DNA from: a virus | IMG/VR virus record: IMGVR_UViG_3300023174_000117 | Span: 1 to 64,000 of that record | Length of the DNA stretch: 64,000 nt | Strand: one strand, 5' to 3' | Part shown: positions 5,201 to 54,112 of the stretch, piece by piece | Position numbering within the stretch: the first letter of the stretch is position 1 | Layout of the letters: each line of letters opens with the position of its first letter | Notes under the pieces: generated by a model | Seen by the model: the letters and a program-made list of their open reading frames with translations, nothing else | Database searches by the model: none | What the model was told of the DNA's origin: nothing | Made by a program: the position numbers and the translations under genes

Positions 5201-7181
5201 ACACTGAAATTTGATTTTTTGAACTCTCCGTAGAAAAGAAATCTCCAGTAAATTGATTTAATGTTTTCTGAGATAATGTAATAAGTCTATATGGTTTAAA
5301 ATTTCCATAATATCTATTTTGATTTCTTATCGAATTTAATATTGATGATAATGCAGAGGTTGGATTAAAAGAACCATCTTTCTTAACTAAATTCATTGCT
5401 TCAAATGCAAGCTTTGTAAACGTCTCTACATTGTATGGCTGACCAGTAACAAGAGTGCTAATAGCGTTTGCAACATCAAGATTTGATACCGCTGAATCTG
5501 AAACCAACATACCATATATCTGTTGCAAATTTCTTTGGTTTGCTAGGCTTGCAGAATCGCTACCACTTTTAATATCAGCAGTTGCCGTAATTACGCCGGT
5601 CTTCCACCTATATATTAAGCCTTGCGGATGCTGAATTATTCTACTTCCAAAGAGAGAACCAGCATCATTATATTGACCCTGATATATATTGGATTCTGTT
5701 GCATTACTTCCGGCTAATATACCAGAATCAAAGCTTAACAAACCGCTTCTTAGAAGCTCTTTATTCTCCTGCAGAAGTTCCGGCGCTCCAGTTAGAATTA
5801 TCTCTCCAGTCTCATCCTTCTTTAGGTCATATGGCGTAAGAGGATCTTCTAAGACACCTCTCGGATCATTAAGTGTTGGATCCTCCATGTACCTAGACCA
5901 TGTTAGCCACTCCATATTGCTGGAGCAAGAAACCTTTATGGAGTTACCACTTGCTGGAGAGAATGTTTCACTAATACCTTTGACAAATCCACCAAAAACG
6001 TGAATCATATCAAAAGAGTCTGATAACTTTCTTATCCTCTTATATGTATCTAAATCTATAAAGTTATTTGTAAATAATCTTTTTTCCGCCTCAAGAATTG
6101 AATCATCTATTTTGAAATAAGACTCATCTGGCGAAATTGCGAAGGATGAATCATTTTTAGATGAATTTTCAACGTACTTATTTCCCTTTACGTAAAAATG
6201 AACGGCGTCGCCGACGTTAATTATTGTTTTACCCAGATAGAATATTCTTAGCCTCTCCCTTATATAATCAACGTCTATTGTTGGATCTAGACTTCCAAGT
6301 CCCGCCAACTCAAAGGCAGAAGAAACTATAAGCGTTGTATCTAAAGGTGGTGTGGTCATAGCACCATAGGCTAAATCATTAAGAAGACCCAGTGTTCCGA
6401 GAAGTGCTTCTCTTATGGCAGTTTCTATATCCTCCTCTATTATGTTAAGAATTCTATAGGGATCCTGTATGGAAAAATCTCCACCACCGCCGGTTGGAGT
6501 AACTACGGAGTTGCATGAAAAATTTGTAAAATTACACAGCTCAATGACACCGGTTCCTGGTCCAGTCTGATAATTATCCACATTATCAGGATCTACAATC
6601 CAAGATGTTAGATAATTTTGAGAAGAAAAAGTATTTCTCCTTAAAACTTTTATGACATCTTCCTTCAATGCATCATAATTAAGGTCTGAAAATGTTGCAG
6701 AAATTAAGTCGACAAATCCTGAAATCTGTTGCTTTCTTCCTGCGCTTGCTATATCCAGATATTTCGCAGAATTCAAGGTATCTATAAATATGTTTAGGTT
6801 TACTTCCCCATATTCATTCATAAAGCTATTCAACTTCGTCAGAGACTCGTAGGCCCTTATTTGATTTACCTTATAAGCAAAGAGGGCTTTTGTGGCTCTC
6901 AAAAGCATTTTTTCAGTACGATCCATCCATTTTAAATCGTTATTTGCACTGAACGTAGAGAAGGCCTTTTTCTTTATAAGAACGGTTGAATTTGGCGATT
7001 GTGCAACAAAAGATCTGTTTTTTGGTTTCGTAGATTTAGCCCTATTTTGATCTAAAAATACAGATACGCCAGATTCGACCAGGTATAGAGGCGAATCTCC
7101 CGTTAGAAGCTTATCAATGGTGCCATTTATTGCACCATCAACATTTCTCTTTAAATCAAGATATGATGGAATATAACTCAT
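2286..7181 (-). CDS. Large baseplate hub protein (gp27/VgrG-like hub domain)
   Basis: This is a 1631-residue baseplate protein. Residues about 1260-1345 carry the typical hub signature: a beta strand with SVTLAGNEYYQPGDTVYIPS, then LLFYVTRVAHSFSIGSKFTTSL and ALEYGHPPG. This is the form found in tail hub proteins that bridge tube and spike. A segment near residues 815-835 (GFEFFCNSQGHLELRPPLWN) is also typical of hub proteins. Residues about 650-720 are a charged helical, coiled-coil-like stretch. The length is far above the 300-400 residues of simple hubs, so extra domains are fused. The start ATG at 7181 has no clear Shine-Dalgarno site and follows a very A-rich leader. It lies between the tail initiator-like gene and the spike gene, as expected for a baseplate. 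Confidence 0.65.
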   Translation of the reverse strand: MSYIPSYLDLKRNVDGAINGTIDKLLTGDSPLYLVESGVSVFLDQNRAKSTKPKNRSFVAQSPNSTVLIKKKAFSTFSANNDLKWMDRTEKMLLRATKALFAYKVNQIRAYESLTKLNSFMNEYGEVNLNIFIDTLNSAKYLDIASAGRKQQISGFVDLISATFSDLNYDALKEDVIKVLRRNTFSSQNYLTSWIVDPDNVDNYQTGPGTGVIELCNFTNFSCNSVVTPTGGGGDFSIQDPYRILNIIEEDIETAIREALLGTLGLLNDLAYGAMTTPPLDTTLIVSSAFELAGLGSLDPTIDVDYIRERLRIFYLGKTIINVGDAVHFYVKGNKYVENSSKNDSSFAISPDESYFKIDDSILEAEKRLFTNNFIDLDTYKRIRKLSDSFDMIHVFGGFVKGISETFSPASGNSIKVSCSSNMEWLTWSRYMEDPTLNDPRGVLEDPLTPYDLKKDETGEIILTGAPELLQENKELLRSGLLSFDSGILAGSNATESNIYQGQYNDAGSLFGSRIIQHPQGLIYRWKTGVITATADIKSGSDSASLANQRNLQQIYGMLVSDSAVSNLDVANAISTLVTGQPYNVETFTKLAFEAMNLVKKDGSFNPTSALSSILNSIRNQNRYYGNFKPYRLITLSQKTLNQFTGDFFSTESSKNQISVLRQKKNKIKSKIEKLRGGSSSLSQQKGMIIATLQAELNLINAQIDAEVNIARKSTGQDVSQVFNQGFFNDYSVSGPGNTSDYDVNRAMSIVSSQRRIEDVKLNRDSNYLIISDLYDANTEIKLAALNLKRQNFSLFKASYMPVLDRIANLVEVTGFEFFCNSQGHLELRPPLWNRTPLSVLNAMYKYQSTTNNKIVPDFLFKLFETRVGSLKAEISAYNIKIVILALLIGRYPDASLIPLPTINEALNISSSYGEASLNFFGVRLGQDQKKSFGSDITYSSNGTSNLINETKTFDLFVDIDILDSRKDSTSGNITDLIGDFSTFFLESKPAGGLGGEPGSTNYDLAVELIRDISTNDIASTNLSQNSSYLKVDAEKIESLRQQFLKTTGIDPLMGFSLDNGKTITSKDLVYKLPTGNDEQVVDIDVITQKVDRIFAELEKAISGRNVLVTILKTNLEKQSELEQINDNLVSGFSEVSDQDVFDQVFEENVGSALPNMRKAVSSLNDLMSGDAFSSTLFDHLIEDDTKNLLGPGSGRRYIIQDEEIEDMSMEERPPDYTRIDVFGQASLIDESLKSIYGGENLMFWAGATDFDLWRQYGYRPKTVNVPFSNSAEYVSKPLALLHMMMQRVKIFSGSVTLAGNEYYQPGDTVYIPSKGLLFYVTRVAHSFSIGSKFTTSLALEYGHPPGIYLPTPIDIIGEQYNKQFLKNGDFINVRTTLGDDKYRVLEPDSCIIFPFGTQISENNVDALLSYKGNQTAFYNMITDLSTGIITGNRKLLIRGFVKDGKDSSLINEVQKRIDIVKSLFLNPVMLTQTNSTALGDDLYDSVSSIVRTVSPIGNSKDLAPIVLPNGITAPKIQDYQIIEQISYLSKDSSSVDNPQLSRVNCISSKDIGRFRATGKTVDVSKIIDQFPKGGPKQASIFKAREESENYVGLSINALERTIEIGLLDLDKASSDLLTSLGNSVTLSTGI

Positions 7182-11638: not shown

Positions 11639-14600
11639 CTAAATTCCGATTTCTATGTCAATCATAACGTAGTTTATCGGATATGCTGGTGTAAATCTTA
11701 GGTATACGTTCCACTGTCTTGGATCTACCTTATCTTTTTCAACTCTAACATTTTCAAAGTTAGTAATCAAACCCTGACTTACAAGTGACGCCATTATTGT
11801 CTTGACTCTTGCGTTCATTAAGCCTTGTGTATTCTGATCCTCGACAGTTCCGATGAATGGCAGCAAGCTATCTCTTAGAACTTGCTTTACCCTGTCTCTT
11901 ATGAACATTACGGAGATTTCTTCATCCTCGATAAAACCAGACTGACTGGTGGTTCTTCCTGCGAGTACTTTTCCACCGCCAGTGATTGGCTGAACAACTG
12001 TTGCACCGACTGCGCCTAGCTGATCTAGAGTTAGTCTCTTGAACTGTCTATCTCTAGTTATTGCGAATCCAGCCAGCTCTTTGAATGTTAGTGGTATGGC
12101 GACATTCTGGGTGCTGGATGTTAAACCACCAGCGGCCGCAGCCATATAGAATCCATGAACGAAGGTATTGCTTCCATTTATGCTGGTAACTATTCTATCT
12201 GGATAGAAGAACACGGCTCTATTTGAGGTGTAGTTATTTGATAGCTTGTAGTCGGCAAGATCCTCTACGTTTCCTCCTAGGACTTCCTCAGGATCGTCGC
12301 CCTGAACTCCCTCTAGAACTCCAATGTCCTCTACTGCAACTTCCTCTGTACCAATGATGGCTGCTGGAGTTAGACCTTCCTGAGCACCGATAAATGCGAT
12401 TCTCTCCTTTCTGTTTGCAATAGTGCTCATGCTTTCGCAGTGCTTTACTGCAGCTTTGAATATGGAGGAGATAGTCTGGGTTGGTAGAGGTACTAGAATC
12501 TGGAAATCTACAGCCTCTAGAGCTTCTAGAGCCTCAAACCAGTTTGTATCAAAGTGATTTGCATCTTTCTCGTCAATATAGGAAATTCTTAGACCATCGC
12601 CTCTCTTGAGGGCTCCGCTCTCAACAACATCCTTATTTAGAAGAATCATTGCCGATAGGTTTGTAGTATCGGATTCGTCTTTGATGAAGAAATTTACATC
12701 TTGACAATCTGCGACGACAACATCCTGATCTATGTTATTTGCAACTACCGCAACTGTATTGTCATTGATTATTTCTGTTATGACGAGCTCTGCTATATCT
12801 GTGGATGGAACACCGCCAAATACGAAGTTGCTGATATCGGAAATCGAGGTGAAAACAGTTCCGGAAGAATTCTCAACGGACTGTAGGACGATTACCTTTC
12901 CGATGTCTTTGCTTGAGAAGTCGACATCAAGAGACTGGAAATATCCTGTGGATGCAGTTATTGTTGCCCCAACTCCCTGAGCTACAATCTTCGCATCTGT
13001 GTTAACTACAGTATAAGAGAATGCGTAGTCTGGGCTGGTTACGAAACTCTGCTGTCCAACTGGGCTTTCTAGCTGAGAATTGTAGAAACCAACTTTGTTT
13101 GGGAATATCTGAGTCTCAACGCCATTTCTTTTTACGAAGAAGTTTACGTTGGTATCGCCATCAGGTCTGCCGGAGGTGAGACCGGATCTTGGTGCAGGGA
13201 TGACAAAGGATACGTCATCTACTTCGCAAGTGCCAGTTCCGCAGCCTGGATATCCGCCGACCCCGCCCTTAACTTCGCTGAAGAGTGTGACGCTGCTTCT
13301 TCTGGGTACGGATGGCTTGCACTGGATTGCAAAAATTCCTGCTGCTCCGTTCTGGAAAGCTAGCTGGGCGCCAAGGGATAGTGTGTTTGTGACACTTGGA
13401 TCTCCATGCTTGGAGTAAAGTTCCTGAGCGCTTGTGAAGAACTCTGGGTCATTCAAATCCTGTTCGGCAACATATCTAACTTCCAGAGAATCGCCGGCCT
13501 TCAAAACTCTTGATTTTACATCGATAAAGAACTTATCACCAACTTCAAATGGAACAGTACCCTCTTTGACGCCAAATACTAGAACACCATTTGTCTCTAG
13601 AAGGGCGTAAGTTAGACCATCCTCAGCGAGACCAAGAACAGGGTCTGCAGCGGCGGTCATTTCGGGGAAGGCTAAGTCAGGGTTCGAAAGAAGCTGTACA
13701 CGAATTCTTCTGGATGAAGTTACAGCAATAATCTTGTATTTTTGAGCGGAGGTTCCGCTGCAGATAAGAAGAACTTTACCAAGGTCTTTGCTCGTAAAAG
13801 AACCATTTCCATCATCATATGGCTGAGTTGGATCCTGAACGAATAGATTAGTTGCTCTAATCTGCCAGTCAACACCACCAACTGGTACGTCAGTTGGTAG
13901 GGTATCCGTTTGGACGGTTACGGTGGTTTCGTCTGAATCAGAATCATAAGTTATATCTGTTATAACTGCGTTAAACTCAGAGTAACCATCTTGTAGACAG
14001 AAATGATCTCCTACAAGGGCTTGACCCTGGGTAATTAGATCTCCTGAGAAGCTGTACTGAGCGGTGGTTCCTGTGGTTACATCTCCTGTTACAGAAACTG
14101 GGAAGGCTAGGCCAAAATCAACGCCGTTTTCCGCAACAATAAAGCCGTCAGAGCATGCGGTTGAGTTGCCAGATACTGCCCCATCAGTTCCAGTGAAGTA
14201 GGTTCCGTGGAAAAGGAATGGCTGACCGCTTGAATCTTTGAGCTGTCCAGAGACTGAGCCAGAAACCGTAAATGTCGATAGACCTGGTATTGGATTTCCG
14301 GAAGAGTCTCTTGTTACTGAGACGCAGCGAACTGTCCATCTCTCTGGAGGTGTATTTGTATCTAGTATAGAGATTAGATCAAAATCACCGCAAGTTCCGT
14401 CGGCGATAAAACCATTACCAACATTTAGAGAGCTTGCAGAATAATTCTTGCCATTCTGGTCTCCGATGCTGGCACCCTGAAGTTCCAAGCATCCTGTGGT
14501 TAGATCGAGTCTAAAGTCGTACTTTCCTTCGAAGGAAGATTCATCGACAGATTGCTCCAAGCCATATAGAGCTGTTCCATTTAGATAGACTTCGGTTCTT

Positions 14601-14848
14601 CCAGATACTACTGGGAATGTGGAAAGTGAGAAATACTTTCCGTCACCAGTTCCGGTGGGGCTGCAGGAAGCAGATCCGTCAAGCCCATTACCTACCGCAG
14701 AATCTACAAGAATTTCTCTCTTCAAGCCTTCGCCCATTACACAAAGAAGCCTTAGGCCACCTGGAATGGAAACGGCTCTAGAAACAACTCTGTCTCTGGC
14801 AAAGGTGCCCGGTTGGGTATATCCACTTATACCTGGAATATTTGCCAT
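11639..14848 (-). CDS. Contractile tail sheath protein (unusually long)
   Basis: This 1069-residue protein is the tail sheath. The C-terminal 250 residues have the sheath signature: NRAVFFYPDRIV, MAAAAGGLTSS, LAGFAITRDRQFKRLTLDQL, DEEISVMFIRDRVKQVLRD, then a final arm ending in PINYVMIDIEIGI. The N-terminus (MANIPGISGYTQPGTFARDR) is also typical. Usual sheaths are about 450-700 residues, so about 400 residues of extra beta-rich domains lie between, probably on the outer sheath surface. CGGAGG precedes the ATG and an AT-rich promoter-like element lies 33-57 bases upstream. Codon usage is of the high-expression type. It contains several Cys-rich stretches (for example GGYPGCGTGTCEVDD), unusual for a sheath. 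Confidence 0.9.
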   Translation of the reverse strand: MANIPGISGYTQPGTFARDRVVSRAVSIPGGLRLLCVMGEGLKREILVDSAVGNGLDGSASCSPTGTGDGKYFSLSTFPVVSGRTEVYLNGTALYGLEQSVDESSFEGKYDFRLDLTTGCLELQGASIGDQNGKNYSASSLNVGNGFIADGTCGDFDLISILDTNTPPERWTVRCVSVTRDSSGNPIPGLSTFTVSGSVSGQLKDSSGQPFLFHGTYFTGTDGAVSGNSTACSDGFIVAENGVDFGLAFPVSVTGDVTTGTTAQYSFSGDLITQGQALVGDHFCLQDGYSEFNAVITDITYDSDSDETTVTVQTDTLPTDVPVGGVDWQIRATNLFVQDPTQPYDDGNGSFTSKDLGKVLLICSGTSAQKYKIIAVTSSRRIRVQLLSNPDLAFPEMTAAADPVLGLAEDGLTYALLETNGVLVFGVKEGTVPFEVGDKFFIDVKSRVLKAGDSLEVRYVAEQDLNDPEFFTSAQELYSKHGDPSVTNTLSLGAQLAFQNGAAGIFAIQCKPSVPRRSSVTLFSEVKGGVGGYPGCGTGTCEVDDVSFVIPAPRSGLTSGRPDGDTNVNFFVKRNGVETQIFPNKVGFYNSQLESPVGQQSFVTSPDYAFSYTVVNTDAKIVAQGVGATITASTGYFQSLDVDFSSKDIGKVIVLQSVENSSGTVFTSISDISNFVFGGVPSTDIAELVITEIINDNTVAVVANNIDQDVVVADCQDVNFFIKDESDTTNLSAMILLNKDVVESGALKRGDGLRISYIDEKDANHFDTNWFEALEALEAVDFQILVPLPTQTISSIFKAAVKHCESMSTIANRKERIAFIGAQEGLTPAAIIGTEEVAVEDIGVLEGVQGDDPEEVLGGNVEDLADYKLSNNYTSNRAVFFYPDRIVTSINGSNTFVHGFYMAAAAGGLTSSTQNVAIPLTFKELAGFAITRDRQFKRLTLDQLGAVGATVVQPITGGGKVLAGRTTSQSGFIEDEEISVMFIRDRVKQVLRDSLLPFIGTVEDQNTQGLMNARVKTIMASLVSQGLITNFENVRVEKDKVDPRQWNVYLRFTPAYPINYVMIDIEIGI

Positions 14849-30190: not shown

Positions 30191-31276
30191 ATGAAAAAAT
30201 TAAAAGTTGGAATTACAACCAGAGATGAGGCAAGTATTTGGTCTAATGGTTTGGACCAAAATATATATTTTCTGTATAAGATGCTTGAAGACATGGGTTA
30301 TGACCCACATTTGATTACAGAAGCACAGAATTCTCTAAAACTTGTCGACATTAAAGTTGAAAAACAGGATGTCTATTCTATTCGAGAGTTTGACCTTGTA
30401 CTTGAAGTAGCTCACCCATTAAGTGAGAAACTTACTTCATATTATAACAGCCTTGGAAAACCATTAGTTTCTATAAAATATGGAAACTCTTTTATGATAG
30501 ATTTGGAAAAATATATTCAAAAAAATGGAGAAAATAAAAATTTTTCTACAGGTGTAAATATCCCATTCCGAAATAGAGAGATTTGGGTTTCAGAACAATT
30601 CTATAAATTCAAGGATTATATAGAAGTTTTAACAAGAACTAACGTCAAAGTAATTCCTTACATTTGGGATTCTTCTATATTAAGAATGTATGATGAGGGC
30701 TTTCATAATCAGGATATGAAAGTTAAGAAAGAAGATTTCAGAAAGTTAGCTATAGTTGAGCCAAACTTAAATATATTGAAAAACTGCATGGTCCCTCTAG
30801 CTATATGTGATATGGCTTACGATAAAAGAAGTGACCTGATCAAGGAAGTTCTTTGCTTCAATTCAAAGTCGATGGATAAAAATAACGTATTTATGAATTA
30901 TATTAAGTGCTTAAATATACATAAGAATAAAATATCTTCCTATGAGGGCAGATACCCATTGTATAAGATATTTAAAAATAACAATGCAAATACGATTATT
31001 TCAAATCAACTTTTTAACGAACAAAATTATGTCTACTTAGAAACGCTTTTTTACAAAAGACTTCTTATTCACAATAGCCCGCTATTTAAAGATGTTGGAT
31101 ATTACTATCCGGAATTTGATGTAAATAAAGGTTCCGACGTATTGATTGAGGCGCTGGAATCATTCGATCAAGTTAAACATATTGATTCTTATGAGGCGAA
31201 ACTAGAGCAAGTTTCTATTTATAATGAGAAGAACCAACAAGTGACAAGAGAACTTATTGAAGGTGTTTTAAAATGA
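30191..31276 (+). CDS. DUF2827 glycosyltransferase-like protein, copy 1
   Basis: This 361-residue protein matches the DUF2827 pattern as I remember it: a start with VGITTRDEASIWSNGLDQN, then VKVIPYIWDSS, LAIVEPNLNILKNCMVPLA, a YEGRYPLYKIF segment and a C-terminal Rossmann-like part with NQLFNEQNYVYLETLFYK and LIHNSPLFKDVGYYYPEF. The layout is that of a GT-B glycosyltransferase, though the DUF2827 function is unproved. GAGAAG lies before the ATG. It overlaps copy 2 by 4 bases (ATGA). Set on the opposite strand among virion genes, it may modify a virion protein, a fibre or the host surface; this is inference. Confidence 0.65.
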   Translation: MKKLKVGITTRDEASIWSNGLDQNIYFLYKMLEDMGYDPHLITEAQNSLKLVDIKVEKQDVYSIREFDLVLEVAHPLSEKLTSYYNSLGKPLVSIKYGNSFMIDLEKYIQKNGENKNFSTGVNIPFRNREIWVSEQFYKFKDYIEVLTRTNVKVIPYIWDSSILRMYDEGFHNQDMKVKKEDFRKLAIVEPNLNILKNCMVPLAICDMAYDKRSDLIKEVLCFNSKSMDKNNVFMNYIKCLNIHKNKISSYEGRYPLYKIFKNNNANTIISNQLFNEQNYVYLETLFYKRLLIHNSPLFKDVGYYYPEFDVNKGSDVLIEALESFDQVKHIDSYEAKLEQVSIYNEKNQQVTRELIEGVLK

Positions 31277-32349
31277 GAAAACTCAAGATAGGTGTGACCT
31301 GCAAGGACTCCTCTAAACTTTGGTCCAATGGTTTAACTCAAAATGCTTATTTTTTAATTGAACTTCTAAAAAAGATAGGATACAAGAGAGTTGATCCCGT
31401 ATCTCAATTTGATGATGCGAAAAAATTTATAGAAGAATATGAAATACTCCATTTAAATAAAGACACGATCACAAATTATGATCTTATTATTGAGGTTTGT
31501 TATTCCGTTACTGATAACCTATTAGATTATGCAAAAAAGAAAGGTATAAAGGTAATAACGATTAACTACGGCAACATCCTGATGTTGATGCAGGAGGACT
31601 TAGTTTTAAATCCAAAAAGCAATCCTGCGGTTAATAGAGGCGGATTAGACTCTTGGATCTCTCCACACTTTGAGTTTTCAAAAGGATTTGTTGAGACAAC
31701 ATCAAAGGGAAGGGTTGAAATCTGTCCTTATATTTGGTCTCCAAAGATATTTAACAAATATTGCAAAACAAATAATTTAGATATTTTTTATAAAGACAAA
31801 GCAAACATAAACAAAGTTGGAATATTTGAATCAAATATAAACATAATTAAAACATGTATTTATCCTCTAATTTCTTTGGAGAAGTTAGAGAGAGAAGATA
31901 AAAATATAATAAAGGAAATCCTCATCTTTAATGCTGTACATCTGAAGGATAACCCTAAATTCAAGGAAATAACATCAAATTTTGATATATTTTTAAACAA
32001 AAAAATATCGGCAGAGGGAAGATACCCACTGCCGAATATGTTGGCGAAAGGCTATGTTGGAATGATTCTCTCTCACCAATTTTATTGCGATCTAAATTAT
32101 CTAACTCTAGAAGGATTTTATTCTGGTCACCCCGTAATTCATAACAGCGAATTCTGTAAGGATGCTGGATATTTTTACGAAACATTTAGTGCGGATAGCT
32201 GCGTATCTCAAATAAAGAAGGCCATAGAAACTCACGATGAAAATATAGAAAATTATAGAAAATCGGCCAAAGAAGTTATATTTAAGTTCTCCGCAGAGAA
32301 TCCAGAGAACATAACAAAATATAGATATCTTATAGATAATATCAGCTAG
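31273..32349 (+). CDS. DUF2827 glycosyltransferase-like protein, copy 2
   Basis: This 358-residue paralogue of copy 1 keeps the same landmarks: KIGVTCKDSSKLWSNGLTQN, ICPYIWSPKIF, VGIFESNINIIKTCIYPLI, AEGRYPLPNML, then LSHQFYCDLNYLTLEGFYSG and HNSEFCKDAGYFYETF. Spacing of these blocks is preserved, so it is a true tandem duplicate that has diverged over most of its length. Translation is coupled to copy 1 by the ATGA overlap. Its 3' end overlaps the 3' end of the minus-strand gene 32342-32683 by 8 bases. Two copies suggest two substrates or a heterodimer; neither is shown by the sequence. Confidence 0.65.
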   Translation: MRKLKIGVTCKDSSKLWSNGLTQNAYFLIELLKKIGYKRVDPVSQFDDAKKFIEEYEILHLNKDTITNYDLIIEVCYSVTDNLLDYAKKKGIKVITINYGNILMLMQEDLVLNPKSNPAVNRGGLDSWISPHFEFSKGFVETTSKGRVEICPYIWSPKIFNKYCKTNNLDIFYKDKANINKVGIFESNINIIKTCIYPLISLEKLEREDKNIIKEILIFNAVHLKDNPKFKEITSNFDIFLNKKISAEGRYPLPNMLAKGYVGMILSHQFYCDLNYLTLEGFYSGHPVIHNSEFCKDAGYFYETFSADSCVSQIKKAIETHDENIENYRKSAKEVIFKFSAENPENITKYRYLIDNIS

Positions 32350-42386: not shown

Positions 42387-43010
42387 TCATCTATTGATCT
42401 TAGTTATAGCATCCCTTACCAAAGAAGCAGCCTTGAGGTCTCCAGAATCAATTAGATCTGAAGCCATCTTAACTAATTCACGAACAACGTTCTTGCGAGA
42501 AGCGGCCTGCTTAACGATATCAGTTCTGATCTCTGAAGCAGTGACTCTCACTAGATCTGCGGCAAATCCCTCGCCCTTGGCTCTTAGACTTGCCTCAATC
42601 TTTCCTAGACCCTTCATTAGATATACATCTCTTTCGGAGGCTTCAGCATAATGAGATAGAGAGTCATCGGAGTCGTTCATAAGATCGTCATCCATATAGT
42701 CTGCCATGGAATTCATATGTCCGTCTAAAGAGTCGTCATCAGCATCAGATGACTCATCAGATAGAAGGAAGTCAGAAGAATCCCAAGACTCGTCTGAGGA
42801 ATCAGAAGAATCATCTGATAGATCCTCGTTTGAATCTAGAGCAGAATCATCCATATGATGCATCATTTTGTCAGAAGCATCGTCATCAACATGATGGACC
42901 TTCTTATCAGAAGCATCGTCATCAGCATCCATATGCTCTGGATGTGAGGCGGACTTAATTAGTTTTAACATTTCCTGGGCGATAGTGTCGCCAGCGTATT
43001 TATTAAACAT
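42387..43010 (-). CDS. Highly acidic head-region protein with His/Asp/Ser repeats
   Basis: This 207-residue protein has a low-complexity acidic region at about residues 20-120, with repeats of DDDASDKKVHHVDDDASDK type followed by runs of S, D and E. The C-terminal 80 residues are helical and basic-acidic mixed (ADLVRVTASEIRTDIVKQAA). AAGGAG precedes the ATG and codon use is of high-expression type. It follows the protease-scaffold gene, so it may be an internal scaffold or core protein that is digested. His clusters could bind metal; this is inference. Confidence 0.55.
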   Translation of the reverse strand: MFNKYAGDTIAQEMLKLIKSASHPEHMDADDDASDKKVHHVDDDASDKMMHHMDDSALDSNEDLSDDSSDSSDESWDSSDFLLSDESSDADDDSLDGHMNSMADYMDDDLMNDSDDSLSHYAEASERDVYLMKGLGKIEASLRAKGEGFAADLVRVTASEIRTDIVKQAASRKNVVRELVKMASDLIDSGDLKAASLVRDAITKINR

Positions 43011-43020
43011 AATTATCTCC

Positions 43021-44943
43021 TTATTCCCAGAGCATCTTTAGGATGTCGGAAGATGACTTGGATGGTGATTGCTCAGAGGACTCAACACCAACATTAACTC
43101 CACCAAGATCTGTTGCAATCTTTACGGAAGAAATAGACTTTGCGTTAGCTACGCTTCTCTTGAAAGCTTCGAAAGCACGGTCATCGAAGTCCATGATGTC
43201 ATCGACCTGCTTGTCTAGAGCAGTCTTGCTCATGCCAATTAGGCCTTTCTTCTGCATTTCAAGGGCGACGTCAAAAGCTCTGCGGAGCTTTAGCTTGTAG
43301 ACTTCGCGGTCCTGATCAGCCTTCTTTGTGGAGAATGCCTCGGAAACAATTTCCTTTAGAGAGGCGGTCTTCTTCTCTTTTGCGTCATCAGACTTCTCTT
43401 CTTTGGGCTCTTCCTTCTTCGAAGCCTTTTCGGACTTCTTTGGCTCCTCGTCCTTCATCTTCTTTGATTTTGGAGCCTCTTCCTCCTCTTCGGCCTTACC
43501 CTTAGCCTTAGATGGCTTTGCTGGGGCCGACTTTGCAGCAGGAGCCTTCTTCTTTGCAGCCTGAACAAGAATCTCTTCTCTTCTTGCTCTTCTTAGATCC
43601 ATGGCCATAGAGATTAGGTCTTGAACTTCATCATCGGAGTCGTCAGCCTGACCAATTATGTCGTGCATGTCGTGAGACATGTCGCCAACTTCGGAGCTCA
43701 TGTCGGAAGAATCGTCAGCCATGGTCTGATAGTCTTCTGCATAAACGACCTTTGCGGTTTTGGTCATAACCTGAGAAAGGGAGGATGCCATCTTGGTTAG
43801 TGCTGAGGTCTGACCGAGAGCTCTATCTGCATCTCTTAGTGAGTCACGAGCAATCTTATTGAGATCTGCAACGTTCTCAGAGGATAGTCTATGAGCATTC
43901 TCATAGGTCTCTGCGATCATGGCTAGCTCGTCAGCAGATTCATCCAACTCTGCAAGAGCAACCTTAAGCTGCTGAGAAATCTCTCTAGAGAGCTTGACTT
44001 CCTCACCACCAGACTCAACGTCTGCAGCGCCCTGGTCTGCATCAATATTGACAGTTACCTTGCCGCCGCCCTCAATCTTGCCGAGTGCATCTCTAGCCTT
44101 GGCGACTGCCTCTTCGATTGAAACGAGAGCGTCCTCAACAGTCTTCTTAGGGGAGTCATCGCCCTCATCAGACATCTCGGGAGCTTCACCGGCAGGAGGA
44201 GCCATTGGTGGCATTGGTGGCATTGGAGGAGCGGGTGGTGCGCCAGCCTCTGGACCCATTGGGGGTGCTGGTGGCATCTCCTGTGCGCCCTTTAGAAGCA
44301 TAGTTACGTGATCTAGGCCGCTAGCTCTGATCTGCTTGCAGACTTCCTGACCATACTCCTTGCTGGTGAACCAATCCCAATTCTGGGATAGCTCGTCACC
44401 GAAGATTTCGGAGCCAGTTGCGGCGATAACACGCTTATCGCCAGCAAAAACCTCAAATACTGCGGCAGACTTGTTGATCTGACCGGATGGGGCTGGGGCC
44501 CAGCTTAGCTTGGTGGAGAGGGCTGGACCTTCATAAGAAGCTCTCTTCATCTTCTCTTTTAGCTGCTGATCGCCGGGGAACATACCCTTGTCACCACCCA
44601 TCTTGCCATCCTGATGCATCTGCTTGTCTTCATCGAATGGGAAGGGCTCAGACTTAAAGGTTTTTGGCTCAGCACCCTCAGAGGCGCCCTGGAAGTAAGC
44701 AAGACGGCGAAGTCTTCTTTCCTCAAGCTGGGCTCTGCTGAGCTTCTGCTTGATGTCCTGGTCTCCTGGGAAGCTGCCTTCGGCGCCGCCCATCTTACCA
44801 TCCTGATGCATCTGCTTGTCTGCCTCGAAAGAGAAGGTCTCTTTCTTGAAGGTTGCTGGCTCAACGGCCTTATCAGAACCACCCTGGTGATAAGCTAACT
44901 TTCTTCTTAGCTCAGCACGCTTTCTTAAACTAGACTCACTCAT
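43021..44943 (-). CDS. Nested scaffold protein from an internal in-frame start
   Basis: Codon 404 of the protease gene is ATG (44943-44941), preceded by GGAGG with 5-base spacing, one of the best ribosome sites in the window. It would yield a 640-residue scaffold (MSESSLRKRAELRRKLAY at the start) without the protease. Downstream of this point codon choice shifts to the more G/C-rich high-expression type, while the protease part keeps the AT-rich low-expression type. Such separate expression from an internal start is known for lambda Nu3 within gene C and lets the phage make much more scaffold than protease. The product is inferred; no direct proof is possible from sequence. Confidence 0.7.
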   Translation of the reverse strand: MSESSLRKRAELRRKLAYHQGGSDKAVEPATFKKETFSFEADKQMHQDGKMGGAEGSFPGDQDIKQKLSRAQLEERRLRRLAYFQGASEGAEPKTFKSEPFPFDEDKQMHQDGKMGGDKGMFPGDQQLKEKMKRASYEGPALSTKLSWAPAPSGQINKSAAVFEVFAGDKRVIAATGSEIFGDELSQNWDWFTSKEYGQEVCKQIRASGLDHVTMLLKGAQEMPPAPPMGPEAGAPPAPPMPPMPPMAPPAGEAPEMSDEGDDSPKKTVEDALVSIEEAVAKARDALGKIEGGGKVTVNIDADQGAADVESGGEEVKLSREISQQLKVALAELDESADELAMIAETYENAHRLSSENVADLNKIARDSLRDADRALGQTSALTKMASSLSQVMTKTAKVVYAEDYQTMADDSSDMSSEVGDMSHDMHDIIGQADDSDDEVQDLISMAMDLRRARREEILVQAAKKKAPAAKSAPAKPSKAKGKAEEEEEAPKSKKMKDEEPKKSEKASKKEEPKEEKSDDAKEKKTASLKEIVSEAFSTKKADQDREVYKLKLRRAFDVALEMQKKGLIGMSKTALDKQVDDIMDFDDRAFEAFKRSVANAKSISSVKIATDLGGVNVGVESSEQSPSKSSSDILKMLWE

Positions 44944-46152
44944 TATATCCTCCAAAACTGACGATAACATTGATTTGTTAAAATGATCATTTTCTTCTTC
45001 TGCTGCAAACTTAGATACTGACGCTTTTTTTGCATCCCAAGTATTATCTGGAATCACTCCTCCAGCCTGAAATTCATTTGAATCGCTAGGTGAAGCAATT
45101 AGTGAGCCAGAAGCGCCAGTATAGTCTTTAACGTCAAAATCATCAGATCCTACCAAGCCAGTTATTGGATTTGTAGTTTGTCCTGATGTAAAATTTTCCA
45201 TATTCTGTGGGGAGCCCTGTACAACTGGGGCGTCTGTGGATGCAACTTTTAATAAATTATTCTTGGTTAAGAAACTTGTGATGATTTTCTTTCTCTCTGT
45301 TATGGAGCAACCTTCATCACCACAAGCTGTCTTGACTATCGTGTTTAGATGCTGAGCTTGCTCTGAAGATAGGCTGCCCAACATTTCTTCGAAATTATCT
45401 ACACCATAGTTTACGAATTCATCACGATAGCTTTTTAGCGATGCTATACACTTCAATAGGACCGCACCAGCTTCCGCAGGCTGAACAACAAGAGAGTATT
45501 CAATTGGCTTCAATCCAACGTTTATTTCGCCCCAAGCAGATCTCTTTGTGACATGATCACAATATTCTTTTGCGGTCTTTGCTTTATTTCCACATTCGGA
45601 GCAAACAGATACTTCTACTGCGGTTCCCATCGAACCATATCTTACTATACCTGTCTCAACTTTCTTTGCCAAATCAGCATAATTTATGCGATCTAGAGCG
45701 CAGAGGCCAACGACCTGTTTTAGCTTTTCGTCGTAATGAGTATCTAGAATAATTCCTCTTATACCATCAACAGAATCTGAGATATGATCCTTGCATAGAG
45801 GTTTTCCAATCCAATCTCTTGCGGCTTTTTTAAGCTCTGCTTCGGGGAAAATATCGGAATTGCTGTTTTTGTGTGGGCGAACGTTACCGTGCCATCTCCA
45901 GTTGTCATCAAAGTATCCCCAAGCTCTTTCTCTTCCAACCTTCTTGAGATCTCCCTTTTCATCTATAAGGGCTGACTCGGCGGCCTTAATGAATATAATA
46001 GAGAAATAAAGAAAGTCATCTGACTTTGGGGCTATAGACTTAATTTCGTGAGCAAGCTTCGTCATGCGATCCACAATGACTGGATCAGCAAGAACTGCTT
46101 CGCTACTTAAAGGAGTGATCTCCGAGGAACTGTATCCTACTTTTTTAAACAT
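43021..46152 (-). CDS. Prohead protease fused to scaffold
   Basis: This is a 1043-residue protein. Residues about 60-235 form a capsid maturation protease: H123 in WIGKPLCKDHISDSVDGIRG and S174 in GIVRYGSMGTAVE are the likely catalytic His and Ser, and the fold ends with INVGLKPIEYSLVVQPAEAGA, typical of prohead proteases. A Cys/His motif (C184-x2-C187-x10-C198-x-H200) follows the Ser and probably binds zinc. Residues 404-1043 are the scaffold: two tandem repeats, a Pro/Ala/Met-rich linker (APPMPPMPPMAPP), coiled coils and a Lys/Glu-rich stretch. AGGGAA precedes ATG. The protease would digest the scaffold after shell assembly. Confidence 0.75.
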   Translation of the reverse strand: MFKKVGYSSSEITPLSSEAVLADPVIVDRMTKLAHEIKSIAPKSDDFLYFSIIFIKAAESALIDEKGDLKKVGRERAWGYFDDNWRWHGNVRPHKNSNSDIFPEAELKKAARDWIGKPLCKDHISDSVDGIRGIILDTHYDEKLKQVVGLCALDRINYADLAKKVETGIVRYGSMGTAVEVSVCSECGNKAKTAKEYCDHVTKRSAWGEINVGLKPIEYSLVVQPAEAGAVLLKCIASLKSYRDEFVNYGVDNFEEMLGSLSSEQAQHLNTIVKTACGDEGCSITERKKIITSFLTKNNLLKVASTDAPVVQGSPQNMENFTSGQTTNPITGLVGSDDFDVKDYTGASGSLIASPSDSNEFQAGGVIPDNTWDAKKASVSKFAAEEENDHFNKSMLSSVLEDIMSESSLRKRAELRRKLAYHQGGSDKAVEPATFKKETFSFEADKQMHQDGKMGGAEGSFPGDQDIKQKLSRAQLEERRLRRLAYFQGASEGAEPKTFKSEPFPFDEDKQMHQDGKMGGDKGMFPGDQQLKEKMKRASYEGPALSTKLSWAPAPSGQINKSAAVFEVFAGDKRVIAATGSEIFGDELSQNWDWFTSKEYGQEVCKQIRASGLDHVTMLLKGAQEMPPAPPMGPEAGAPPAPPMPPMPPMAPPAGEAPEMSDEGDDSPKKTVEDALVSIEEAVAKARDALGKIEGGGKVTVNIDADQGAADVESGGEEVKLSREISQQLKVALAELDESADELAMIAETYENAHRLSSENVADLNKIARDSLRDADRALGQTSALTKMASSLSQVMTKTAKVVYAEDYQTMADDSSDMSSEVGDMSHDMHDIIGQADDSDDEVQDLISMAMDLRRARREEILVQAAKKKAPAAKSAPAKPSKAKGKAEEEEEAPKSKKMKDEEPKKSEKASKKEEPKEEKSDDAKEKKTASLKEIVSEAFSTKKADQDREVYKLKLRRAFDVALEMQKKGLIGMSKTALDKQVDDIMDFDDRAFEAFKRSVANAKSISSVKIATDLGGVNVGVESSEQSPSKSSSDILKMLWE
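44530..44907 (-). repeat. Tandem 60-66-residue repeat in the scaffold
   Basis: Two copies encode RRKLAYHQGG and RRLAYFQGAS, each followed by a variable link, then ADKQMHQDGKMGG and EDKQMHQDGKMGG, then FPGDQ and a basic helix. The core is nearly identical, so the duplication is recent or under constraint. The repeats open the nested scaffold. Confidence 0.75.
44949..44953 (-). promoter_or_regulatory. Internal Shine-Dalgarno GGAGG deciding the scaffold start
   Basis: GGAGG on the minus strand lies 5 bases before the in-frame ATG at 44943, inside the protease gene codons for Leu-Glu-Asp-Ile. Confidence 0.7.
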
Positions 46153-46176
46153 TAAAATTCCCTGTTATTTTACAAA

Positions 46177-46375: not shown

Positions 46376-48520
46376 CTATTTTGTTAAAACTTTTTGATTT
46401 AAAATATTTTGAGAAATATAATCAATAAAATTATTTATATTGTTCTCAAGATCTTCGGTTGATTTGGAAAACTTCTCTGTATCTTCAGCTAGTTTTGCGA
46501 TAAATACTTCTGGCTCGGATATTTTATCGACAAGCGCAAAGATCTCCTCAACAACATCGACGTATTGAGAGCAGGAAATCGTCAAAGAGTCTATTTTTTC
46601 TGATACAGATGAGATATCTTTAATCTCGTTCATTATCTGTAGAGATGATTTGATGACAGATAGAGCGTCAAAAACTCTTTTTGCGTTTCTTCGGCAAGAC
46701 TGCTGATAAGCACCTTTGTAGGTTTTTATTAATTCGGGCTTATCTTTTATTTTTGAGAATTCTTGATTATTAGCTTGTAGCTTATCTAATACGATTGAAA
46801 CTAAATCTAAAGATTTTTTTAATTTCAAGTAAGCCTTTTTTGCCTCAGACTTTATGGAATCTGGAATAGGTATTCCAGAAACTTTCTTGAATTCCGCCGA
46901 AGAGATGTATCTAAAGTTTTTGCCACCAAATCTTTCGGACGCAACTCTTATGATCTGGCTTGGTTCTAAATCATTTGATATTGTAAATACCTCGCTGGCC
47001 CAAAGATCAGGATGAACCAAAAGCTCTTCTTCAGCCCTCTTCAGAATAAGCTTCTTTAAAAGATCTGAATTTTCTATATTTCTAGTTGCGAATACAACTT
47101 TATCTCCGGAAGCAATGCTTTTGTTTAATTCATAAATTATTCTTCTTGCTTCAGGATTCGTGTTGCTTTCTTTTGCCATAAAATTAGAAAAGCTACCCAA
47201 TTTATTTGGGATAACCGAATAATCTTTGTATTGACCCACCTTGGAAAGAAATTCTTTCAATCCGATAATCTTGGAGGACTCGCCTTTGCTAGATAGGGAA
47301 GATTTTTTAAATATCTTTATTTTTGCATCCTTATCGAAGATGATTTGATCAAAATCAAAGATAGAAACATTTGAATTAAAATCACTGCTAGAAGCAATTT
47401 TAGATAGGGGAGGGATGGAGAAAGGACTGGTGCCACTAATTATATCGTAATTTTTAAATTCAATTTTTTTATTTGAAAATTTTGTTATACGATGATAAGT
47501 TGGCCTATCAGAAGTCAGCTCCTTTGTCGAAGAGTACTTCTCAAACTGTTCGCCATTTACTGAGGATACAGTTATTTTATCGCCAACATTTATTCCTAAT
47601 TTATCGGAAGTTTCTCCGAGAACTTCCAGAACGCATGAAATATTCGCTGCACCAAAACTGCCGATTGTCCCCGGAATAATATTCTTGCAGATCTTCTTTA
47701 TCTTATTGTCTGCATCGATAAAAATTATGTCAATTGGAAAATCCACTGTCCCCATGTGATACATTACATCTTGAGGCCTGTCGTATGGGAAAATCAGACC
47801 GGAACCATATTTTAATCTAGGGTAAGTTTGAAGTCCTGCAATTTTGTCTTCTATATTTGATGCAACGTCACAAATAAACCAGGCTTTTCCATCGAGACTT
47901 TTTGAGTCAGATATTTCTATTGATGCGACCTTTGAAATCTCATTCTTCTCTACGTAGTAAAGACCATCATTATGATCGCTCTCTTTTATTTCAAAGCCTA
48001 ACTTGCTGAGATAATCGACAGACTTCTTATTTGCATTTACAATAACACCCTTGCAGACTGGTCTCGAATACTGACTGATGTTGAAAAAAATTCTTTTTTG
48101 ATCTTCTGGTGTAAAATCCTCAAGATTAATTAGGAATCCGGAAAACTTCTTCATAATGGGAGAATTCCTCAGATCAATTCTTAGGAAATCATCTCCTCCC
48201 TTTGAAGAAAATTTAATCACAGAGTCGCCTACATCATTACCGGGGTCTATGTTGTAGGTGATTACAGTTCCATATTTACCTACAGATGAGCTTATTTTCT
48301 GCAGAGTCTTCTGAAAAGAATTTTTTGACAAGCTCAAAGTTACGTCAGGATCTTGATCTGAAACATCACTGATATGGCCTTGCTCATAGGAATCCACTGG
48401 AGAAAATGGTACTCCGGAATCATACCTTATTTCGCTTCCATGCTCTTTTTGGGTGGCAGTTTCGAAATTTTTATTTCGCTGACTTTCCAATGTTAGTAAT
48501 GATTCTGAATTTTTGCGCAT
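46376..48520 (-). CDS. Large protein with a DUF192 domain and a HAD-like region
   Basis: This is a 714-residue protein. Residues about 213-320 match DUF192: IAGLQTYPRLKYGSGLIFPY, then VDFPIDIIFIDADNKIKKIC, then SCVLEVLGETSDKLGINVGD. Residues 387-396 (IFDFDQIIFD) and 474-480 (KVVFATR) have the order of HAD-phosphatase motifs I and II, but motif III is not clear, so that domain may be degenerate. Residues 155-190 (KKSVDYLSKLGFEI) look like the end of an acetyltransferase fold. The C-terminal 150 residues are helical. AGAGGC precedes ATG. It lies between the portal-side gene and the protease; a head assembly role is inferred. Confidence 0.55.
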   Translation of the reverse strand: MRKNSESLLTLESQRNKNFETATQKEHGSEIRYDSGVPFSPVDSYEQGHISDVSDQDPDVTLSLSKNSFQKTLQKISSSVGKYGTVITYNIDPGNDVGDSVIKFSSKGGDDFLRIDLRNSPIMKKFSGFLINLEDFTPEDQKRIFFNISQYSRPVCKGVIVNANKKSVDYLSKLGFEIKESDHNDGLYYVEKNEISKVASIEISDSKSLDGKAWFICDVASNIEDKIAGLQTYPRLKYGSGLIFPYDRPQDVMYHMGTVDFPIDIIFIDADNKIKKICKNIIPGTIGSFGAANISCVLEVLGETSDKLGINVGDKITVSSVNGEQFEKYSSTKELTSDRPTYHRITKFSNKKIEFKNYDIISGTSPFSIPPLSKIASSSDFNSNVSIFDFDQIIFDKDAKIKIFKKSSLSSKGESSKIIGLKEFLSKVGQYKDYSVIPNKLGSFSNFMAKESNTNPEARRIIYELNKSIASGDKVVFATRNIENSDLLKKLILKRAEEELLVHPDLWASEVFTISNDLEPSQIIRVASERFGGKNFRYISSAEFKKVSGIPIPDSIKSEAKKAYLKLKKSLDLVSIVLDKLQANNQEFSKIKDKPELIKTYKGAYQQSCRRNAKRVFDALSVIKSSLQIMNEIKDISSVSEKIDSLTISCSQYVDVVEEIFALVDKISEPEVFIAKLAEDTEKFSKSTEDLENNINNFIDYISQNILNQKVLTK

Positions 48521-51265: not shown

Positions 51266-54112
51266 TTACATCCTTCTTGTCACATGAGCCAGGACTGGTT
51301 TTGGCATAACAGTTTCGCTATTATTTATACCTGGTTTAATAGTAAAACCTTTAGTTAAATCAAATTTATATGCCATATAGGCATACATAAGTGCCATAAG
51401 ACCGTCGTTAGGCGAATTACCCTTTATATATGTTTTTATCGGCTGACCACCAACAACTCTGATGGATGATTCCATAGACGTGCAATGATCGATGAGCCAT
51501 TCAATATACTCAAAGCTTTTCCACGGAAATCTTATCTTTCCTTTTCTAAAGTTATCAAAGATTTCTTCAACCAAAAGATCTTTATTATAAGAGACTATCA
51601 ATTCGTCATCTCTGAATTTCAGAGGCTTTAATAAATTTCCGCTTCCCTGGGCGCCTAAAAATTTATCGCCATAATGCCTTTGAAGATCATGAACAACGTC
51701 CTGACCAAAGAACCAGTCAGACACGCCGAGTTTTACCCCAAATCTTTTATACATCTCATTTATTGTCTCTTTCTTATAATCAAAGTCTTGCTTCTTTAAT
51801 TTATGGGCATGCTCAACAAGAAGTGTTCCGTCGGGCATAGCAGAAAGAATAACAACACAGGAGTATGACTGACCCACGTTGGAGGAATTATCATCGTCTT
51901 TGCCACCCCAGTCAACTCCAAGATAAGTTGTCTTTTCTCTGGGCAAAATCCTTTTGGCAAGAGAACGATCTGCATCTCGGCATTTTTCATATATTTCAGC
52001 CCTAGTTATTGGAAGTCCCGCTCCAGAGAAAAATTCTCCAACAACCTCGTTCTTATAAATCCTATCTGTCTGAAGTGGGTTATTTTCAGGCATAAGGTTT
52101 AGAATATTTTCTTTTGTAAAGTAAGGGATATATAGCTGATTTATATGAAAACCTACGAATTTACAATCCTCTGATTTTCTTGAGGCTACCCACATGCCGT
52201 TTTCAATTGCATCTACTTTATTCTGTTCGCAGGAACAAAGTGGACACTTTATTGTGTAACCGGAGACCCAGATGTCCAACCAGTCTCTGCTTTCGGGAAG
52301 ATAAAAAGGATAAGTCCCTTTGCAATTCTTGCAGCCAAGATGATAATATCTCTGATCAGACATATCCCACATGGATGAGAAATAACTATTCTTTTCCTTT
52401 GGTGTTCCAAAGTAAACTTGAACGCCAGTGCCAACAGGACCATATTTTGCTGCGGTCAATATTTTTGTTGCGTTTCCAATTGACTGTGCAAACATGTCCT
52501 GACAATTGCTGACTACTATTCCTCCAAGATTTTTGCTAGTTTTTGAAGTAGTTACGATAAAATTGTGGTTGTCCTCAACCTCAATATCATAAACAACTTC
52601 TTTGTAATCTAATTTTATTATTTTATCAACAGATGTGACACTAGTTACAAGTTTTCCTTCATTCCATTCATATTTATCATTATCAGTGTTTAGAATTTCA
52701 TATGATATATTGTCATGAACATATGGAGAAATTAGTTCGGATAACTTCTTAAAACTATCCTCATTAAAATATATTGAATAATACTTCTTATCCTTTTTTG
52801 CACCAGAAAGATAAGATTTGTAGTGACAATCTATTCCAAGTGACTTAAATTTTTCAACGAATCTTTTCTGTGAATCTTCATCAAAAGAACGGGTTGATAA
52901 ACACACAGAGCCGGATTCACCCCATTTTTTAACGCTACCATTATCCATAAACCATATGGCAATACCTCTTTCATCAAGGCTATCCAAAACCCATTGAGGG
53001 CAACTAACCTTATTCTTTGGTAAAGCCGAATTCAAGCCAAACAACTTGGTAGTAAATTTGATGGCCGGCTTTTTACTAAAGCCATTTTCTTCTATTGTAG
53101 CAATACTAGAATCAAAAAATGATGCCTTCCACTTGCAATAATTTGATTGTGATTCTCCATGAATCACGCTCATCCTGTATTTTCCATTTCCACTACTTGC
53201 AATGGAGCCGGCGCCAAGAAATGAACCCAAAACTATTTGTAATTGATCAGAATTTAAATTTCTAACGAATGTTTTTGTGGCCGGGGAGGACATTATCAGG
53301 CTTCCGATCGTGAGATTTTCCGCCATAATCCAGCCTTTAGTTGTTAAAAATTTATGATTTGGCGTACATCTGACTACCCTATTTCCAAGATGTAGCTCTA
53401 ATAAACTTCTCTCGCCTCTATTCCAAGCATTTTTAATCTTTTTAAATTCAAAAGACTTCAATTCTTCATTGTAGCTTTTTACAAATGGAAGTTGCTCACC
53501 TTTTGTAAATAGGTCAAATATTTTTCCTATTTCTATTTTTCCAGAATCAGTCTCTATAAATGTGTTGTATGGAAAGCATTCATCAAAAAAGATAGCATCA
53601 ACGGTCATACCACGAATTCTGTCTGCATCTTCACCAATACTATCTATCCATAAAGTTCCGTTATTAAACTGCTTCATGGTTAGATTGTCTGCTGCGTTCG
53701 TTGATTTTAGCTTGTTCTTTATTAGAAAGTTATCTTTTGATGTTCTTATTAAGCTTTCTAACTTATCCTGAGAAAAACGCTTTACGAAATGAAGGGCGGG
53801 AAAGGCATGAAGAACCTTCATATTTTGAAACATACCACCATTTGTAAAATATAGATCTAAGGCGGCGGCCATCATAGTGGCACCAACCTGTCGACCCTTT
53901 TTGATTACAACTGGTTTCCCAATCTTCTGAGTTGATTGCAGACCTATATATCTATAAATGTCAACCATGAATTTCCAGCCGTTACCAATAATTCGGAACT
54001 CCTCTCCATCGAGTCTCAAATTATTTTGGATAAAGTAGGCTGGGTCTAAATCCAGAAAGTTGCTTTTTATATTATCAAATAGTTCTTGCTCTTTCTTTTT
54101 TAATTCATTCAT
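51266..54112 (-). CDS. Terminase large subunit with intein (GpA-like, zinc finger)
   Basis: This 948-residue precursor would splice to about 590 residues. ATPase: Walker A-like KKGRQVGAT (residues 71-79), lacking the usual Lys after Gly, as in lambda gpA-type enzymes; Walker B VDAIFFDE (171-178). After the intein come the coupling segment QVYFGTPKEKNS, a zinc finger (C594, C597, C623, C626/C628), and a nuclease domain with YLGVDWGGKDDD, a central DWFFGQD and SPNDGLMALMYAYM. Its zinc finger resembles that of GpA-type terminases. It drives DNA packaging with the portal. The ATG has no clear Shine-Dalgarno site. Confidence 0.88.
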   Translation of the reverse strand: MNELKKKEQELFDNIKSNFLDLDPAYFIQNNLRLDGEEFRIIGNGWKFMVDIYRYIGLQSTQKIGKPVVIKKGRQVGATMMAAALDLYFTNGGMFQNMKVLHAFPALHFVKRFSQDKLESLIRTSKDNFLIKNKLKSTNAADNLTMKQFNNGTLWIDSIGEDADRIRGMTVDAIFFDECFPYNTFIETDSGKIEIGKIFDLFTKGEQLPFVKSYNEELKSFEFKKIKNAWNRGERSLLELHLGNRVVRCTPNHKFLTTKGWIMAENLTIGSLIMSSPATKTFVRNLNSDQLQIVLGSFLGAGSIASSGNGKYRMSVIHGESQSNYCKWKASFFDSSIATIEENGFSKKPAIKFTTKLFGLNSALPKNKVSCPQWVLDSLDERGIAIWFMDNGSVKKWGESGSVCLSTRSFDEDSQKRFVEKFKSLGIDCHYKSYLSGAKKDKKYYSIYFNEDSFKKLSELISPYVHDNISYEILNTDNDKYEWNEGKLVTSVTSVDKIIKLDYKEVVYDIEVEDNHNFIVTTSKTSKNLGGIVVSNCQDMFAQSIGNATKILTAAKYGPVGTGVQVYFGTPKEKNSYFSSMWDMSDQRYYHLGCKNCKGTYPFYLPESRDWLDIWVSGYTIKCPLCSCEQNKVDAIENGMWVASRKSEDCKFVGFHINQLYIPYFTKENILNLMPENNPLQTDRIYKNEVVGEFFSGAGLPITRAEIYEKCRDADRSLAKRILPREKTTYLGVDWGGKDDDNSSNVGQSYSCVVILSAMPDGTLLVEHAHKLKKQDFDYKKETINEMYKRFGVKLGVSDWFFGQDVVHDLQRHYGDKFLGAQGSGNLLKPLKFRDDELIVSYNKDLLVEEIFDNFRKGKIRFPWKSFEYIEWLIDHCTSMESSIRVVGGQPIKTYIKGNSPNDGLMALMYAYMAYKFDLTKGFTIKPGINNSETVMPKPVLAHVTRRM
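52505..53578 (-). other. Intein within the terminase large subunit
   Basis: A 358-residue protein intron interrupts the terminase right after the Walker B Asp-Glu. Block A begins with Cys (CFPYNTFIET, precursor residue 179), block B contains T250-P-N-H253, block F is VVYDIEVEDNHNFIV and the C-terminus is VVSN followed by extein Cys537, so splicing rejoins FFDE to CQDM. The penultimate residue is Ser rather than His. A LAGLIDADG-type endonuclease region is present, but the catalytic Asp before Gly is replaced in both motifs: LGAGS (A301) and MDNGS (N391). The element can probably splice yet no longer home. Confidence 0.9.

Follow-up and report, generated by a model that had tools for sequence, protein, structure and literature searches.

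A conserved internal ribosome site in a phage head protease gene and the candidate scaffold protein that it would start

In our study, one gene of a large phage was found to carry two starts in the same reading frame, and it most probably encodes two co-terminal proteins, a weakly started fusion of protease and scaffold and a strongly started scaffold of 640 residues, in the manner of lambda C/Nu3 or herpesvirus UL26/UL26.5. The parts of this reading that were drawn from sequence are both starts, their conservation, a step in codon usage, and the presence of the C-terminal domain in a gene of its own in Bacillus phage G. The gene lies in a stretch of 64 kb (hereafter the window), which is part of an 87.6-kb virus record. 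Its frame was unbroken in every relative spanning the region, and the split form was never seen there. The genes of the portal, the major capsid protein (MCP), and an intein-bearing GpA-like ATPase terminase are near neighbours, and the gene order portal-...-protease/scaffold-...-208-residue gene-MCP was kept in the relatives. The features of the gene, in window coordinates, were as follows.

43021..46152, minus strand: whole gene (protease, linker and candidate scaffold), 1043 aa in a single unbroken frame
46160..46163, minus strand: weak AGGG resembling a Shine-Dalgarno site, before the full-length start; its duplex energy is -4.9
45418..46023, minus strand: head maturation protease domain, residues about 44-245, from PHROG and phage G gp19 matches and an alignment of 27 proteases
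45784..45786, minus strand: His123, invariant in the alignment of 27 proteases, presumed catalytic
45631..45633, minus strand: Ser174 in GSMGT, invariant in the same alignment, presumed nucleophile
45553..45603, minus strand: CxxC-x10-CxH putative zinc site, residues 184-200, from sequence motif and alignment
44944..45255, minus strand: linker of variable sequence and length (mean identity 22%; 32-179 aa across the relatives)
44949..44953, minus strand: internal Shine-Dalgarno GGAGG, followed by a 5-nt spacer, ATATA
44941..44943, minus strand: internal start ATG, codon 404 (A of the codon at 44943), a start codon in 48 of 48 sequences
43021..44943, minus strand: nested candidate scaffold reading frame, MSESSLRK..., 640 aa, co-terminal with the full gene, from codon step, helices and the separate phage G gene
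44539..44943, minus strand: two tandem copies of a motif of about 67 residues, with which the nested product begins, from alignment
43138..43326, minus strand: C-terminal conserved domain, residues about 943-1005, common to phage G gp21, from profile match and hhalign

The presence of a tail sheath gene suggested a myovirus. The sheath gene (11639-14848) is unusually long, with 1069 residues, and its sheath match is confined to the last part (residues 895-1067 with the best family). The intein within the large terminase gene (51266-54112) contained a LAGLIDADG endonuclease. Two adjoining DUF2827 genes (30191-32349; E 4e-62 and 3e-71) were found on the plus strand amid an otherwise minus-strand structural block. 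A 714-residue gene (46376-48520) lies between portal and protease, is present in 46 of 50 relatives, and contained a DUF192 domain (E 2e-18), which is odd in a head gene.

The original prediction placed an internal start at codon 404, with GGAGG 5 nt upstream of an ATG in frame within the 1043-codon gene, and this was confirmed. Among 43 genes listed in the window, with 309 internal in-frame ATGs, codon 404 was the sole case of an in-frame GGAGG-N4-9-ATG inside a gene. The Shine-Dalgarno duplex energy at this codon was -9.3 kcal/mol, better than that of 42 of the 43 gene starts, including the start of the MCP gene (-8.9). The phage uses Shine-Dalgarno sites at 19 of 43 gene starts (energy of -5 or better), as against 12% of the internal ATGs. 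A second Shine-Dalgarno-ATG pair at codon 524 (-11.5) was considered as a further conserved site and rejected, as it was absent from the conserved start-like columns of the alignment.

The codon usage of the gene was found to change close to the internal start. The GC3 was 0.33 before the site and 0.51 after it, with the best change point at codon 428. An MCP-like codon log-odds score, controlled for amino acid and referred to the MCP gene and its neighbouring 208-residue gene, rose from -0.50 to +0.14 with the change point at codons 411-425 (t = 9.5, vs at most 5.75 in 300 permutations), and of the other genes scored only the MCP, the 208-residue gene, and a tail-fibre-like gene were above the candidate scaffold part. 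A step exactly at the ATG had been predicted; the step toward capsid-gene usage proved to be real, but it begins about 7-25 codons after the ATG. In the relatives, GC3 after the site was higher than before it in 42 of 46, and the pooled profile went from about 0.30 to 0.38-0.50 at the site, whereas by whole-part averages the step was missing in a few (L005, L086, L095, and L098). The change point of a single sequence fell within 40 codons of the site in just 19 of 46, and the step is therefore a trend of the family, clearest in the window's own group. Such a step would imply high production of the 640-residue product and, like the stronger Shine-Dalgarno energy of the internal site (-9.2 vs -4.9), is in line with more of the short form than of the fusion.

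Besides the tandem repeats (consensus KRAELRR..AY.QGG..EP..FK.E....DKQM.Q...MGG..G.FPGD) and the conserved C-terminal domain, residues 404-1043 were found to contain long helices, a stretch rich in proline, and another that is charged and of low complexity. This agreed with the coiled-coil and low-complexity character claimed for the product earlier, since the predicted model, of low overall confidence, showed long helices (668-694, 717-751, 758-804, 840-873, and 924-968) separated by disordered stretches. The mean AlphaFold pLDDT rose from 45.5 with 7 sequences to 56.8 with 43, and only the scaffold helices and a central domain were confident. The product had no match among the PHROGs or, by fold, in the PDB, and nothing significant against T4 gp22 and lambda Nu3. 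Neither the 1043-codon gene nor phage G gp21 was found described in the literature searched, which covered few subscription papers.

In phage G, the protease gp19 and the protein gp21 (486 aa, given no function in its record) are separate genes between the portal and the MCP gp27, with gp20 intervening. The C-terminal domain matched gp21 and the corresponding protein of L142, a contig with a protease 80% identical to gp19, with i-E values of 2e-15 and 4e-12 (43.2 and 32.7 bits, the best shuffled control of this search being 5.8 bits), and hhalign of the domain to gp21 gave 5e-8. When the single 1043-residue protein was used in a structure search, gp19 and gp21 were both among the top matches; thus the single gene of the window has two counterparts in phage G. 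The start of gp21 was rejected as the equivalent of codon 404, the N-terminus of gp21 aligning with residues 404-478 no better than shuffles.

We infer from its position and codon usage, and from the gene that stands separately in phage G, that the 640-residue product is a scaffold. It is less probable, at perhaps a long chance, that the internal start is real and the product is a permanent internal or core protein of the virion or an ejected protein, the scaffold being another gene such as the acidic 207-residue gene at 42387-43010. The 640-residue product indeed matches no proven scaffold sequence, and the 207-residue gene is adjacent and has a strong ribosome site (-8.2) and fairly MCP-like codons (-0.09). 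The long helices and low complexity of the product and the high production that its codon usage would imply speak for a scaffold instead, as does the fusion to a protease between portal and MCP, where a scaffold or core protein is usually found, as has been established for lambda, P2, and the herpesviruses (PMC8508860, PMC12474303). The 207-residue gene is Asp/Ser-rich and conserved, and follows immediately after the scaffold. It is possibly a second core or scaffold protein, and the scaffold role could be shared by it or belong to it, which we count against the scaffold reading of the 640-residue product.

Conservation of the GGAGG and the ATG in relatives had been set as the condition on which the nested gene would stand or fall, and a Shine-Dalgarno sequence and a start codon were retained in every sequence, even where the protein had changed. 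Eight relatives came from a first scan, 69 loci from an alignment scan, and none from a scan of genome contigs; after removal of near-duplicates, 48 coding sequences spanning the site (window included) were left, in 43 clusters at 60% codon identity. A start codon at the site was found in all 48 (47 ATG and one GTG), and a Shine-Dalgarno sequence likewise; the exact GGAGG was present in 46, with GGGAG in L104 and GAGG in L102. In L034 the Met404 was substituted by Lys, yet an ATG was present one codon later, a slide of 3 nt, and in L128 position 404 was Val, encoded by GTG. In three distant relatives (L135-L137), Gly-Gly replaced Glu-Asp with GGAGG retained in another codon phase, spelled GGA GGA in L135 and GGA GGC in L136 and L137, vs the main group, where it runs across three codons (xTG GAG GAx); the ATG of these three holds the same position ahead of the conserved KRA motif. 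The codon of Glu401 was GAG in 44 of 44, as against 37% GAG among the Glu codons of the protease part, and its synonymous conservation was 4.6 SD over expectation. The 48 sequences share ancestry and the counts are not independent trials, a caveat from which the codon-phase and slide cases are free.

The mean Shine-Dalgarno energy was -9.2 at the internal site, -4.9 at the protease start, and -2.9 at other in-frame ATGs, and of the 15 columns in which 60% or more of the sequences have a start-like codon, that of codon 404 was the strongest. Residue 460 was rejected as a second conserved start: its mean energy was -7.6, but a start-like codon was present in only 28 of 44. A trough of mRNA structure was found at the site (MFE -5.2 vs -11.4 kcal/mol at other ATGs, weaker in 47 of 48) and, at -30 to -15, a local dip rich in AT.

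Internal initiation at codon 404 is thus very likely, and the evidence of selection on the ribosome site itself appears unusually clear. A GGAGG that serves as a programmed ribosome pause between domains and aids folding, with Met404 incidental, would suit a site at a domain boundary, between the variable linker and the next conserved stretch; this is highly improbable when a start codon stands at suitable spacing in all the sequences, with GTG as its sole substitute and an ATG kept through the 3-nt slide, and when the structure trough and the codon step are consistent with initiation. A constraint on the protein mimicking a ribosome site would account for Glu401 and Met404 as almost invariant residues of the main group, but it has practically no likelihood, being contradicted already by L034 and L128, where a start codon is kept with Lys or Val at 404, and by L135-L137, and standing against the exclusive use of GAG for Glu401.

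The protease part was consistent with the zinc-binding protease that had been claimed, the CxxC-x10-CxH cluster being a putative zinc site. Residues 96-243 matched head maturation proteases (phrog_18299, 1.1e-12; phage G gp19, 5e-20), and in the alignment of 27 proteases, among them the enzymes of phage G, BcepSaruman, Rhodococcus E3, and Finch, His123, Ser174, and Cys184/187/198 did not vary. Because the conserved His, Ser, and CxxC...C are all present, the protease is assigned on its sequence to the zinc-motif head proteases of giant phages (phage G gp19, PHROG 18299). The zinc motif is not unique to the 1043-residue protein, and was also found in the proteases of phage G, Burkholderia BcepSaruman, and Rhodococcus phages. 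A weak motif likeness was seen to T4 gp21 (N-x-N) and HK97 gp4 (G-x-S-x-G and ES...PA), with E of 0.003 and 0.09 in a search of six sequences; it points towards proteases of that kind, but at this motif level it is not significant enough for placing the protease in the T4 gp21/HK97 gp4/herpes assemblin superfamily. No PDB match was found by sequence or by fold. Related proteases of actinophages also have internal starts (codon 589 in Myrna, 735 in Alice, and 449 in E3), which were rejected, as they were not conserved among themselves. In L001 (5297-9547), whose protein is 95% identical to that of the window, an intein of about 374 residues (TIGR01443 and TIGR01445 matches) sits in the conserved HKN-N-x-DIFPE motif of the protease domain, the window copy being without it. 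The linker after the protease, despite its variability, was in frame and without a stop in every relative examined, and a linker that is never interrupted suggests that the protease-scaffold fusion product is also needed.

In the mechanism that we propose, the weak first start would give minor amounts of the 1043-residue fusion, and the strong Shine-Dalgarno-ATG at codon 404 would give the 640-residue scaffold in excess. The C-terminal domain of the scaffold would guide the MCP into a procapsid, and the fusion would co-assemble via the same domain, so that a small number of protease copies would be taken in. Once assembly is complete, the protease would release itself and degrade the scaffold, which would make room for the DNA. 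The logic is as described for lambda C/Nu3 and herpesvirus UL26/UL26.5 (PMC8508860, PMC12474303); for the present gene, the protein amounts, scaffold activity, co-assembly, and cleavage are what we infer. The arrangement probably sets the amounts of fusion and scaffold during head building. It provides a candidate scaffold for a broad group of large aquatic phages and, via the shared domain, for phage G. As gene callers give the long protein alone, they would overlook an abundant head protein in each of these phages.

Phage G is like the window phage in having a homologous protease and C-terminal domain in the same order, whereas its genes are two and separated by gp20, and here they are fused and nested. 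Tentatively, and with rather less than even confidence, a two-gene ancestor as in phage G might have become fused, so that the scaffold carries the protease into the procapsid; the scaffold's ribosome site would then have been kept or rebuilt at least twice independently, as proposed from the GGAGG in two codon phases, that of the main group and that of L135-L137.

The short form of the herpesviruses is made from its own transcript, whereas here it would start in frame at a ribosome site inside the gene. The likeness to UL26/UL26.5, in which a long protein joins an N-terminal maturational protease to a C-terminal scaffold and a co-terminal scaffold is made separately (PMC12474303), is one of gene layout. 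The lambda C/Nu3 arrangement claimed in the original prediction held for the gene logic, co-terminal protease and scaffold in one frame, but not for membership, as no sequence relation was found: hhalign and hmmsearch against lambda C, represented by its last 278 residues only, and Nu3 were not significant. In lambda, Nu3 starts within C in the same frame and is co-terminal (Shaw and Murialdo 1980 as cited in PMC8508860); C (4418-5737) is annotated as an S49-family peptidase, and Nu3 (5132-5737) encodes a scaffold of 201 aa vs 640 aa here. Phage P2 likewise has protease and scaffold in one gene, gpO (PMC8508860), whereas a nested second product is not annotated in its record and gpO gave no profile match. 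In T4, the protease (gp21) and scaffold (gp22) genes are separate, and the annotated internal start of gene 21 gives a shorter protease and not a scaffold. In HK97, a domain of the MCP serves as scaffold (PMC8508860), unlike the nested gene here. Taken by sequence, the comparison supports a known nesting arrangement in a new form, with a protease/scaffold gene that appears to stand outside the lambda protease family.
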